Assembly: GCA_030950285.1 (NCBI GenBank)
Contig: JAUZRR010000011.1
Location: 1 to 64,000 of the forward strand
DNA length: 64,000 nt
Source: Planctomycetota bacterium
GTDB taxonomy: Bacteria > Planctomycetota > Phycisphaerae > Phycisphaerales > UBA1924
Direction: 5' to 3'
This document shows positions 43,484 through 50,463 of the stretch, one piece after another. The position numbers were made by a program, and so were the translations under genes. The first letter of the stretch is position 1. Every line of letters begins with the position of its first letter. The notes beneath the pieces are model-generated. The model was not told the DNA's origin. It made no database searches and worked only from the letters and a program-made list of their open reading frames with translations.

Positions 43484-44755
43484 CTATTTAGATGGCTCGG
43501 TCAGTCGGCTCACAGCCGCGTCGTGGTTCACCGGCCAGCGCTGGCTGAGACGCACGTCGTGCCCCTTGCCCCAGCCCCGGCTGCTGGTGCCCCAGTGGTT
43601 CGCGGGCCACCCGAGCGAGAACTCTCGCAGGTGCATCCCTGCCTGCTCGCCTTCCTTTGGCGCGCGCCAGTCCCGTTTGGATTCGTAGGTTGCGGTCGTC
43701 CAGGCGGTGGGGCCGGCAACATCTGTCATCATCCCTTCGAGGTCTTTCTCGAGCTGCGCCCCGGACTCGTACGCCCGGTAGGGGCTGATCGCGACGCGCT
43801 GGCCTTGGAGTTCCAGGAAGTTGCCGTGCTCGTCGAGCCCGCCGGCGTCCTCGACATAGGGATACGCCTCTTCGAGCATCGCCCGCAAGGGCAGCCGGGG
43901 CGGGACCTGATCGAACGGGCCGTCGTACCAGGTGTTCTGGGCGATCTCGCGGCGGCTCACCCCGACCAGAATGTATCTCCCCGTGGGGGCGTGCCTGACA
44001 AAGCAGAACCTCGACCGCTCGCCGAACCATGTCTCGACCCTTGCGGACTCGCCTCGGACCCACGCTTCCGGGCGCGGCTTGCGGTCGTCGAGCACATAAT
44101 AAAACGCCCGGCCGGGTTTGTAATAGAGCAGTTGCAAGAAATACCCCGATTCGTCGCGCACGCCGGTGACGTGCTCTTCGCCGGGCAGGAGCGGGAACCC
44201 GGGCGGCTCGAGCGCGGAGCGGTCGAGCACGAAGACCCGCGAGAGGCCGTCGACGCTGAGCGACACCTCGCCGGTCTGGGCGTTGTAGTGCATCGAGACG
44301 CCCTCCCGGCCGTGCTTGAAGTGCCCGACCATCATCTCGCGCTGGCTGTAGGCGTCGAAGTAGCCGACGCTGAACCGGCCGTCCTCGGCATCGGCAAAAC
44401 GGATGTTGCCGCTCACAACACGGGGCCCGAGCGGGAACGTGTAGTAGTAATACCGCTCGGTCGGGTACACGACCGCCCGCTCGGGGGCGGCTGCCATGAC
44501 GAACCGGAGCACGCTCCGAGGATCATCGAAGCTCGGCTCCGAAACGGGGCCCGTCGGGGTGACACCGAGGCTCGTCTCATCACCTCGACGTACCTCGCTC
44601 GAACGCAGCGACAGCTCATTAAGAACAATCCAACCCGAGCTCGGTACGGCACGCTCTGCACCGCATCCGGTACAAATCAATGCACCGATATAGATTGTCC
44701 ATCCCCAAACCACATACGTGAGAGGCCTCAGGCAACATATCTTGGAAAGAATCAT
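43484..44755 (-). CDS. Exported protein with C-terminal WPxxH repeats (third gene of cluster)
   Basis: 423 residues. A hydrophobic signal segment ends at a Cys-rich site (ALICTGCGAE), which could be a lipoprotein attachment but lacks the usual residue at -3. The main body (about 45-370) is a beta-rich domain with many Tyr and Arg; I do not recognise it. The last 40 residues carry three short repeats: GWPANHWGTSSR, GWGKGHDVRLSQ and RWPVNHDAAVSR, matching the repeat unit of the two upstream genes. The ATG at 44755 overlaps the stop of the middle gene as TGATG, so translation is coupled to it. Function unknown; the shared repeats suggest it belongs to the same assembly. Confidence 0.8.
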   Translation of the reverse strand: MILSKICCLRPLTYVVWGWTIYIGALICTGCGAERAVPSSGWIVLNELSLRSSEVRRGDETSLGVTPTGPVSEPSFDDPRSVLRFVMAAAPERAVVYPTERYYYYTFPLGPRVVSGNIRFADAEDGRFSVGYFDAYSQREMMVGHFKHGREGVSMHYNAQTGEVSLSVDGLSRVFVLDRSALEPPGFPLLPGEEHVTGVRDESGYFLQLLYYKPGRAFYYVLDDRKPRPEAWVRGESARVETWFGERSRFCFVRHAPTGRYILVGVSRREIAQNTWYDGPFDQVPPRLPLRAMLEEAYPYVEDAGGLDEHGNFLELQGQRVAISPYRAYESGAQLEKDLEGMMTDVAGPTAWTTATYESKRDWRAPKEGEQAGMHLREFSLGWPANHWGTSSRGWGKGHDVRLSQRWPVNHDAAVSRLTEPSK

Positions 44756-46122
44756 CACCACGGCCAATCAAAGAACCAGTCGCGGAGATCGTTGGCTGTA
44801 GTCCACCATGAGTGGTCCGGGGGGAACACAGGCCAACCGCCTGAATCCGGATCACCCCAGGACTCCGAAATCGGAACTGTGTGCCCGGGAGGCCAGGACG
44901 GCTGGGGACCGGGCCATTCTCCGGAAATAATATCGAGATGCCCCGGCGGGTAGTACACGCTGGTTCCCATGTTGTGATCAGGACCCCAGTTATTCGAGAT
45001 CACCGACTGGTGATTCGGCGGCCACCGACTCTGCGAACGGTCGGTCTCGTGGACCCAGGTCTCGGTCCATGCCGTACGATGGTACGGGGGCATCTTCATC
45101 TGGAGCGAATCTGAATAGTAATGGTTCGGCCACCAGATCCGTGAAACTGTCGGCTCGTGCTCAGGCGGCATCGGACGACTCGACGAGGCCTGTTCTATGT
45201 GCCCGGGAGGCCAGGCCTTACTCACACTCGTTTCGTGGTAGGGGTCATCGGAATAGGTGACGAAGATGAGATGCCCGCCACGCGGAGGAAGCCATGTATT
45301 GGAAGCATACCAGATGTGGTTGGCCGGCCACTGCTTGCTTACTTCATACTGATGAGGACCGGTCGGCGTTGTTTTCGAGGCCCAGGCCTCGTGATCCCCG
45401 TCCGGATCCTCGCCGTCGTAACTTGCCGAAATGTTCCAGAGATGGTTCGGGGACCACCAGCCCGGGCGGTCCGGCGGCCACGTGTCGCTCACGCCCGACA
45501 GGTGCGTGTCCGGGGCACATCCCGAAGCCATGAATGCCTCTCGCCCGTGGGAGACAATGTATCCCATGTACTCGGCTGCCAACCGTGCCGCCTGGTCGAT
45601 ATCGTAGTTGCTCACTTCCTCACCGAATCGGTCGACGGTCACGAGCAGGTCCTCGGCGTTCACGTCGCCGTCAAAGTTAAGGTCGCCTTCGACATCCCCT
45701 GCGGCGACCGCCAGGAGCGTTTGTTCGATATCTGCTGCGCCAACGGCTCCCTGCGCATCCGGGGCGGTCTTCCCGAACGCCCCTTTCATCAAGAAACCGA
45801 TCGCCGTGACGATATCTTCAGACGTCTCGATCCCGTCCCCGTCCAAGTCTCCAACATCCAGATCGGGGCCGTACAACTCGGCCATCCGGTCCATGAGCAA
45901 CATGACAACATCCACATCACTCACGAGACAGTCGTTGTTGAGATCTGTCATCACCATGCTCGACCGCGACATGAACCGCGTCACGCCGGTCCGGTCTGGC
46001 GCGCCGTACTGGGCTGCGACAGACGCCGCCGTGACGGTAGTTCCGATCACACTGGTCATGATGTACGGCTTCGCACCCGCACCAAACCGGCCGGTTCGGA
46101 TCTTCCGACAATACTTCTTCAT
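44755..46122 (-). CDS. WPxxH repeat protein with EF-hand/dockerin-like motifs (middle gene)
   Basis: 455 residues. A basic N-terminus with a possible signal (AKPYIMTSVIGTTVTAASVAAQ) is followed by EF-hand-type segments DLNNDCLVSDVDVV, DLDGDGIETSEDIV and DLNFDGDVNAEDLLV. From about residue 215 to the end there are some 15 short repeats of the form H-x-x-x-[VI]-S-x-x-W-P-x-[NGD], for example PPGHIEQASS and PPNHQSVISNN. The start ATG at 46122 has AGGAGGA at 46131-46137, a very good ribosome binding site. The stop overlaps the next gene. Its promoter contains a run of 17 G between -35 and -10. No enzymatic motif is visible; a surface or matrix role is inferred. Confidence 0.85.
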   Translation of the reverse strand: MKKYCRKIRTGRFGAGAKPYIMTSVIGTTVTAASVAAQYGAPDRTGVTRFMSRSSMVMTDLNNDCLVSDVDVVMLLMDRMAELYGPDLDVGDLDGDGIETSEDIVTAIGFLMKGAFGKTAPDAQGAVGAADIEQTLLAVAAGDVEGDLNFDGDVNAEDLLVTVDRFGEEVSNYDIDQAARLAAEYMGYIVSHGREAFMASGCAPDTHLSGVSDTWPPDRPGWWSPNHLWNISASYDGEDPDGDHEAWASKTTPTGPHQYEVSKQWPANHIWYASNTWLPPRGGHLIFVTYSDDPYHETSVSKAWPPGHIEQASSSRPMPPEHEPTVSRIWWPNHYYSDSLQMKMPPYHRTAWTETWVHETDRSQSRWPPNHQSVISNNWGPDHNMGTSVYYPPGHLDIISGEWPGPQPSWPPGHTVPISESWGDPDSGGWPVFPPDHSWWTTANDLRDWFFDWPW

Positions 46123-46168
46123 GACAGGCGTCCTCCTGTTTCCGCTACGAAAGAGCGGCGACCTGCCG

Positions 46169-46199
46169 AGCATACCCCCCCCCCCCCCCCCTGTGTCAA
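46169..46199 (-). promoter_or_regulatory. Putative phase-variable promoter: TTGACA - CA + G17 - TATGCT
   Basis: On the minus strand TTGACA (46199-46194, perfect -35) is followed by CA and 17 consecutive G (46191-46175), then TATGCT (46174-46169, good -10). The spacer is 19 bp, two longer than the 17-bp optimum. Losing two G would restore the optimum, gaining G would weaken it. The -10 lies 46 bp upstream of the middle repeat-protein ATG. Homopolymer spacers of this kind control on/off switching of surface proteins in pathogens such as Neisseria. The exact G count may be affected by sequencing. Confidence 0.75.
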
Positions 46200-46287
46200 G
46201 CCGTATTCTGAAAGACAACACGGAAACTGCCTCAGCCGTTTCGAGAGCATCGGATTGATCTGGAGTCTTTGTGGCTTGCCGAGAGTC

Positions 46288-47307
46288 TCATCTTCCCGAC
46301 GCCGGTCTGCCCCACGATTCCGACACCGTCCCGACGTGCCCGGCCGGCCATGTGGGCTGCGGCCGGGTCCATGTTTCGGATACCTCCCCGGAATGCCCGG
46401 GCGGGTAGCGCTTGTCCGCGGCCTTTTCCTTATCCTTCCAGGTCTCCGAGACATCCTGCGTGTGGTTCGGCGGCCACCGGCTCAGCGACGGTGCGGTCTC
46501 GTGTGACCAGGTCATCGAAAGGTCGTCAAGGTGCTCGGGGGTGAGGAGCCTCATCGAGTCCCAATACCTGTGGTTCGTCCACCAGACACGCGAGACAACC
46601 GGGTTGTGGTCGTCGGGGTATGTCGAGGTGATCTCTTGCAGGTGGCCCGCGTGCCAGTACTTGCTGACACTTTCCTTGTGGTACTCCGGCGGCTCGGTGT
46701 CGGGCGACCGGGCGCGGCGTTTGTTGGGGGTGGCGGGGGGGAGCCACGTGCTCGAGGCGTACCAGAGGTGGTTGGCCGGCCACTGGCTGCTGATGTGTGT
46801 TTGGTGGGGCGCGGTGGGGTGGCGGCTGGAGGTGTACGAGAGGTGCTCGAGGGGGTCGGCTTCCTTGCCTTCGTACCTTGCCGAGATGTTGACGAGGTGG
46901 TTGGGCCGCCACCAGCCGGGGTGGTCGGCCGGCCATGCGTTGCTTGCGTCGGTCAGGTGCGTCTTTGCGGCGTCTGGTTGCTTCTCGGGCTGGCGGTGCG
47001 TTGCCTCGATGCGCGTGCCGAGCGCTGCGGCGGCGTGCCGCGCGGCGAGTTCGATATCCGTTGTTGCCCCGGGCGACTCTCGCAGCAGTTGCTCGATCGC
47101 GGCGACGATGTCTTCGTAGGTCCGGGCGCCGTCGCCGTCCTGGTCGCCGACCGCCAGGTCCGGGCCGTAGCGCTCGGTCAGCCGATCGTGGAGGGCAGCG
47201 ATATCCACGTCGTCCGCGTCGCCCACGTCGGCAGCGGCTGATGCGGCGATGCCGACGAGCGCCGCGGCGGCACACTGTCGGGCCAGAATGGCAGGATAGT
47301 GCTTCAT
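46288..47307 (-). CDS. WPxxH repeat protein with dockerin-like motif (first gene)
   Basis: 339 residues. A clear signal peptide (MKHYPAILARQCAAAALVGIAASAAA), an EF-hand-like segment (DLAVGDQDGDGARTYEDIV), a short linker, then about 13 repeats of the WPxxH type (RWPPNHTQDVSETW, TWPAGHVGTVSESW) through to the C-terminus. The order of variant repeats matches the middle gene one by one (PGWWRPNH, QWPANHLWYAS, VWWTNH, TWSHET), so the two arose by duplication. No good Shine-Dalgarno precedes ATG 47307. Upstream lies a tandem family B-related repeat. The gap of 165 bp to the middle gene contains the latter's own promoter. Confidence 0.85.
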   Translation of the reverse strand: MKHYPAILARQCAAAALVGIAASAAADVGDADDVDIAALHDRLTERYGPDLAVGDQDGDGARTYEDIVAAIEQLLRESPGATTDIELAARHAAAALGTRIEATHRQPEKQPDAAKTHLTDASNAWPADHPGWWRPNHLVNISARYEGKEADPLEHLSYTSSRHPTAPHQTHISSQWPANHLWYASSTWLPPATPNKRRARSPDTEPPEYHKESVSKYWHAGHLQEITSTYPDDHNPVVSRVWWTNHRYWDSMRLLTPEHLDDLSMTWSHETAPSLSRWPPNHTQDVSETWKDKEKAADKRYPPGHSGEVSETWTRPQPTWPAGHVGTVSESWGRPASGR

Positions 47308-47364: not shown

Positions 47365-47425
47365 TGCCAACGCGGGCTGGAAAGCCCGCTCCCCTGGAGT
47401 TGCCAACGCGGGCTGGAAAGCCCGC
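47365..47425. repeat. Tandem palindrome upstream of the WPxxH cluster
   Basis: Two direct copies with 36-bp period of a unit containing TGCCAAC followed by a perfect palindrome GCGGGCT, GGAA, AGCCCGC (47372-47389 and 47408-47425). The core GGCTGGAAAGCC is a family B relative. Confidence 0.9.
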
Positions 47426-50445: not shown

Positions 50446-50463
50446 GGGGGCTTTCCAGCCCCC
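50446..50463. repeat. Family B-related palindrome upstream of the OmpA-like gene
   Basis: GGGGGCT, TTCC, AGCCCCC, perfect, in the 197-bp gap between the divergent amidohydrolase and OmpA-like genes. The rest of the gap is C-rich and shows no promoter. Confidence 0.9.

Follow-up and report, generated by a model that had tools for sequence, protein, structure and literature searches.

Enzymes that act outside the cytosol on short peptide motifs are known, ApbE being one that flavinylates short Ser/Thr motifs there. Copper-binding His/Trp repeats are also known, and repeats rich in His, Trp and Pro recall them. In Neisseria meningitidis, the length of a homopolymer in the promoters of porA (van der Ende 1995) and opc (Sarkari 1994) sets the spacing between the -35 and -10 boxes, and phase variation of porA in Neisseria works by this change of spacer length (both papers as cited in PMC5084427). 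We describe here a cassette of three genes on the minus strand of a 64,000-nucleotide stretch from a Planctomycetota bacterium (contig JAUZRR010000011.1, positions 1 to 64,000); this whole stretch is called the window below. Two of the genes encode exported repeat proteins (P1 and P2) and the third an exported lipoprotein-like protein (P3). Across phyla, relatives of P3 are found beside exported proteins whose repeats look unlike one another and nevertheless have a common spacing, in which a His is followed five residues later by Ser or Thr (H-x4-[ST], a hexad). We take this as a sign of an undescribed surface system in two parts, made of the P3 family and of its repeat neighbours. The initial annotation of the window had already drawn three minus-strand genes at 43484-47307, and this interval corresponds exactly to their outer ends. 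The features of the cassette are the following:

46288..47307, minus strand: P1, exported repeat protein of 339 residues (open reading frame, related to P2)
44755..46122, minus strand: P2, exported EF-hand/dockerin-like and repeat protein of 455 residues (open reading frame; homologues in 12/100 related genomes)
43484..44755, minus strand: P3, exported lipoprotein-like partner of 423 residues (open reading frame; same 12/100 genomes as the repeats)
46306..46959, minus strand: H-x4-S repeat array of P1 (13 H-x4-S against 1.7 in shuffles)
45523..45990, minus strand: EF-hand/dockerin-like module of P2, residues 45-200 (AlphaFold2 model, PDB, Pfam matches of relatives)
44800..45504, minus strand: repeat array of P2, made of S-x2-W-P-x-N-H-x4 units (14 H-x4-S; invariant His and Ser columns in 33 relatives)
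43661..44578, minus strand: body domain of P3, about residues 60-365, of an unnamed family (75-row alignment, AlphaFold2 model)
43505..43633, minus strand: C-terminal H-x4-S units of P3 (open reading frame, motif count)
46169..46199, minus strand: promoter TTGACA-19-TATGCT upstream of P2 (most orthologous operons are preceded by sigma-70-like boxes)
46175..46191, minus strand: G17 tract in the -35/-10 spacer, a putative phase-variation switch (statistics of tract position)

P3 and its repeat neighbours

A profile of P3 was run against 84,980 species genomes; it gave 217 relatives, of which the best 80 were taken. As these loci were selected by P3 alone, the genes next to P3 constitute an unbiased test. 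An exported repeat protein stands beside P3 in 65 of the 80 loci. In 54 of the 80, an open reading frame situated at most 400 base pairs (bp) from P3 is enriched for H-x4-[ST] with z >3.2 (z >5 in 47 loci), while the best open reading frames located >2 kb away, taken as a control, reach z >5 in 0 of 74 loci. In eight further loci, small exported proteins carry 2-5 hexads, often HWRWGS, each of them weaker evidence when taken singly, and three others have a different repeat, H-[IV]-x2-G-x3-[ST]-x-Y, which is of the H-x7-[ST] type. Depending on the locus, P3 is upstream of the repeat gene, downstream of it or opposite to it.

To the eye, the repeats of the various lineages have little in common: examples are S-x2-WPPNH, which Planctomycetota and two archaea have, HRPKGSVV, SPHNKLQSHLKTG, SHDKDESHHKTG, HTKNVTWPP, THDPVTSHN and HDYDKTKKW. 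When 22 such unlike repeat proteins are aligned on their His, however, Ser or Thr occupies the position His+5 in 68-100% (median 92%), and every other offset from the His drops to 0 in at least one of the 22 proteins. The initial annotation had taken both His and Trp to be fixed; this is true of the Planctomycetota and of a few versions from archaea and from the Candidate Phyla Radiation (CPR), whereas elsewhere Trp and Pro are free. The bases that bear the repeats vary as well, with PG_binding_1, accompanied or not by DUF11, in alphaproteobacteria, a membrane segment (read by eye) in archaea and EF-hands in Planctomycetota. A match of locus L105 to PF08017 was rejected, being below the cut-off and driven by the repeats. 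In a Pacearchaeota bin with a genome of ~0.9 Mb (L097:6061-9096), P3 lies between two different H-x4-S repeat proteins.

The linkage is also visible at short evolutionary range. We sampled 100 genomes of the family to which the window belongs: searches with the repeat region alone and with P3 pick out the identical 12, and the 88 others have neither; two of the 12 have two copies of the cassette. Matches to P2 in G016, G017, G026, G033, G039, G063 and G094 were discarded, as they concern the EF-hand only. Throughout the 12 genomes the repeat gene and P3 are adjacent and on the same strand, separated by 0-107 bp or overlapping slightly, with translational coupling in many cases, and P3 comes after one or two repeat genes. 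At locus L061 the second repeat protein is naturally fused to P3, and in many Planctomycetota P3 carries repeat units itself. The earlier suggestion that the body domain of P3 is a partner of the repeats is thus strongly supported, both by co-occurrence and by the wide pairing of P3 with repeats.

Repeats of the window

The motif H-x4-S is present 13 times in P1, 14 times in P2 and 4 times in P3 (three or four of them at the C-terminal end), against means of 1.7, 1.5 and 0.7 in shuffled sequences, and the longer motif H-x4-S-x2-W is present 9, 8 and 3 times, against 0.02-0.07. This means that the repeat arrays announced in all three proteins are real and far above chance; those of P3 are indeed confined to its end, behind an unrelated body domain. 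P1 and P2 are 47% identical over their length and their variant units come in matching order, as had been noted. The EF-hand/dockerin-like segments also attributed to both are fewer than was implied, with several in P2 and one in P1. In an alignment of 33 repeat proteins the units of the array are not shuffled, each position keeping its own variant, and little or no variation is seen in many of the His, Ser, Trp and Pro columns.

Stacked turns or a solenoid had been imagined for the array. The AlphaFold2 model of this region does not favour them: it shows short turns only, with a predicted local distance difference test score (pLDDT) of about 40-57, although a low pLDDT does not exclude order. 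Residues 45-200 of P2 are modelled as helical, with pLDDT mostly >90, and P2 matches a dockerin of the PDB (E 0.0026). Within the family, Dockerin_1 (PF00404) matches 10/18 members and EF-hand 8/18. Dockerins of type I are defined by two duplicated calcium-binding segments of 22 residues and by the binding of a cohesin. P2 and its relatives resemble dockerin type I and EF-hand modules by Asp-rich calcium-loop segments that match both models; they differ in that P1 and P2 of the window stay under the Pfam thresholds and in that the module precedes a repeat array.

Read by eye, P1 and P2 start with signal-like sequences and P3 with a lipoprotein-like one, in agreement with the signal peptides first assigned to them. 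The stop codon of P2 and the start codon of P3 overlap as TGATG (44757-44753), which is the translational coupling previously described. Scans of P1, P2 and P3 against Pfam, NCBIfam and PHROG gave no match, and the statement that they belong to no recognised family can be kept.

The P3 family

The best 80 of the 217 relatives of P3 come from Planctomycetota, alphaproteobacteria (mostly Hyphomicrobiales), Legionella gresilensis, Thermodesulfobacteriota, Aquificota, Bacteroidota, Ignavibacteriota, Verrucomicrobiota, Acidobacteriota, Nitrospirota and CPR bacteria and, among archaea, from Pacearchaeota and Woesearchaeota. Several of the source genomes are metagenome bins whose labels are possibly wrong; one "Leptolyngbya" groups with Phycisphaerales. 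The distribution is patchy: P3 was found in 35/199 genomes of one alphaproteobacterial order, in 4/294 Planctomycetota drawn widely and in 1/11 genomes of a sample of the genus Legionella. The sets viral_contigs, phages and plasmids contained no relatives, and a viral, phage or plasmid origin was rejected on this basis. In several Hyphomicrobiales (L099, L138, L139, L143, L145) P3 adjoins a recO-like gene, which constitutes a steady chromosomal position.

The body domain of P3 is modelled by AlphaFold2 as mostly beta (pLDDT 82.9, predicted template modelling score 0.79). It has no match in Pfam, NCBIfam, PHROGs or the sequences of the PDB, and at E 1e-3 Foldseek finds nothing like its fold in PDB or BFVD, an absence which does not show that the fold is new. 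The best VIA-align result, Z 4.0 over 70 residues, is a partial match to NlpE. Propeller and lipocalin-like folds gave partial matches only, none of them convincing, and a single-sequence match to IFRD2 (E 0.007) vanished with profiles. In an alignment of 75 rows, 13 residues are invariant: P98, E100, Y104, G116, F175, E193, D201, R260, N274, D278, G279, D282 and Q283. Those that are acidic, together with the Arg, Asn, Gln and Tyr, have the appearance of an active site or of a binding site.

One can notice, at residues 116-119 of P3, a motif GNxR which 59/59 readable P3s with neighbouring H-x4-[ST] repeats possess and which 5/5 P3s with neighbouring H-x7-[ST] repeats lack. In the tree, the five proteins without GNxR form one group (support 99/95) inside the H-x4 diversity. 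This is suggestive of a single co-change, in which the loss of GNxR may have accompanied the change to H-x7-[ST]; a second, independent switch was looked for, and the tree holds one event only. In genome G728 (L187:4206-7519), two tandem P3 homologues without GNxR stand beside one H-x7-[ST] repeat protein.

The poly-G promoter

The sequence TTGACA-CA-G17-TATGCT is found upstream of P2, with a spacer of 19 bp made almost entirely of G; a generic promoter scan misses 19-bp spacers by design. The initial annotation mentions neither this promoter nor the breadth of the P3 family. As in porA and opc, the homopolymer lies between the -35 and -10 boxes, here those of a sigma-70-like promoter, and several orthologous operons are built alike. 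A tract (G9 or C9-C16) occupies the spacer before the repeat operons of G080, G088a, G046, G037 and G085, and reading by eye places one in the promoter for G036 (G18), L069 (G17), L074 (G11) and L091 (G9). Over 281 kb there are 12 runs of G or C of length at least 9, and 7 of them are found in the 110 bp that precede one of 14 repeat operons, where 0.07 would be expected (P about 1e-13). For two of the tracts the chromosome is complete (CP053450.1 and CP054186.1), which argues against a sequencing artefact, though their exact lengths are unsure.

To judge from its sequence, the promoter of the window looks switchable. Its likeness to the promoters of N. meningitidis is the homopolymer within the spacer; the difference is that this one belongs to a planctomycete, that the exported cassette behind it is unrelated and that its slippage is putative. 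The open-access literature that links Planctomycetes with slipped-strand phase variation does not appear to treat a case of this kind. If it is confirmed, the phylum would offer an instance of promoter-spacer phase variation.

Elsewhere in the same genome, a promoter-like site TTGACA-G-C15-GG-TTAGAAT (L199, C4:86174-86188) is followed by a gene whose product has a signal peptide and, at its C-terminal end, a membrane segment; this is possibly a second phase-variable gene. Very long or mirrored poly-G/C stretches, of up to about 58 G, at C28:39878, C42:1781 and C44:27408 look like assembly artefacts.

Proposed mechanism and alternatives

In the reading that we propose, and to which we give an even chance of being right, the cassette forms a surface system of two components under phase variation, and P3 recognises the H-x4-[ST] hexads and most likely modifies or cross-links them. 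P1 and P2 would display an array of hexads on an EF-hand/dockerin-like base, the hexads of the window being embedded in a 12-residue unit S-x2-W-P-P-N-H-x4. P3 would be their dedicated exported partner, whose body domain would read the hexad by its His and its Ser/Thr; by modifying or cross-linking the hexads, it would most likely produce a surface matrix of repeats which includes its own tail. Slippage of the poly-G tract between the -35 and -10 boxes would alter the spacer and switch the P2-P3 transcription unit. The surface location is suggested by the signal sequences and the anchoring domains. The strict conservation of His and Ser/Thr, the freedom of the other positions and the invariant polar residues of P3 favour, modestly, a chemistry of the hexad over simple binding. 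A bolder form of the proposal, which we hold tentatively and consider rather unlikely, is that P3 founds a family of exported enzymes which, in bacteria and archaea, would read the minimal H-x4-[S/T] code, every other position being free, and install a modification or a His/Ser cross-link along it, one branch having passed to H-x7-[S/T] with the loss of GNxR. Such an enzyme would resemble ApbE in idea only, the idea being that of an exported enzyme whose target, a short Ser/Thr motif, recurs along its partner; the motif differs, and 75 relatives of P3 have no Pfam match to ApbE or to any other family.

Several observations weigh against the proposed mechanism. In 15 of the 80 P3 loci there is no clear repeat partner nearby; among these, L096 ends at a contig edge, and the genome of L144 contains another P3, which does stand next to a hexad protein. 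Profile and fold searches found no known catalytic motif or fold in P3, so that the case for catalysis is drawn from residue conservation alone. The P3s without GNxR are the product of a single event in the tree, and the change from H-x4 to H-x7 hence counts as one observation. Roughly half of the orthologous operons lack a long tract, their promoters being of the ordinary kind. Variation of the tract length, G9 to G18, was seen between related genomes only, and the lengths of homopolymers in draft assemblies are unsure. Finally, P1 is upstream of the tract, which means that a switch in the window would govern P2 and P3 only.

It is quite possible, although we lean the other way, that P3 is a non-catalytic binder of the hexads (a receptor, a chaperone or a cap) which anchors or assembles the repeat protein without any covalent chemistry. 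The linkage between P3 and the repeats fits such a binder equally well, the mostly beta model of P3 resembles no enzyme, the units carried by P3 itself in many Planctomycetota agree with it, and PG_binding_1 on the alphaproteobacterial repeat proteins suits an anchored scaffold. On the other hand, 13 residues strictly invariant across bacteria and archaea, with acidic, Arg, Asn, Gln or Tyr side chains in many cases, seem excessive for the binding of a two-residue motif. The regular spacing of the His, together with the likeness to copper-binding repeats mentioned at the outset, could also make of the array a metal-binding sponge or fibre (for Zn, Cu or Ni), the fibre being among the suggestions of the initial annotation, with P3 as a metal chaperone or cap. 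We find this improbable: the Ser/Thr at +5, not a usual ligand, is nearly as regular as the His, P3 has no conserved His in the 75-row alignment, and the cassettes have no conserved metal-transport neighbours. We give still less credence to the view that the repeats are a structural surface fibre and nothing more, P3 being linked to them merely by operon history. The operon-like arrangement and the coupling could by themselves hold the genes together, but the pairing survives changes of gene order, of strand and of repeat sequence, and the co-occurrence is 12/12 against 0/88 genomes.

The repeat strings, the P3 family, the hexad rule and the linkage of P3 with repeats were not found in the family libraries or in the open-access papers searched; they may have been described elsewhere. 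If the proposed mechanism is true, a class of unannotated, lineage-specific repeat proteins of bacteria and archaea becomes legible, since seemingly unrelated proteins would carry one two-residue code and have one conserved partner, and P3 would represent a new family of peptide-recognition or peptide-modifying proteins.

Genomic setting of the cassette

The genes flanking the cassettes are unrelated between genera and alike only within a genus. In G014, a genome of the same genus as the window, the two flanking genes adjoin and the 4-kb cassette is absent, leaving a clean empty site; in G080, also of this genus, that site is occupied by the cassette, with a single repeat gene. Near the edge of the cassette in the window, just upstream of P1, the palindrome GCGGGCTTTCCAGCCCGC occurs as two exact copies, at 47372-47389 and 47408-47425, which form a short direct repeat, and a copy with two mismatches is found at 50446-50463.

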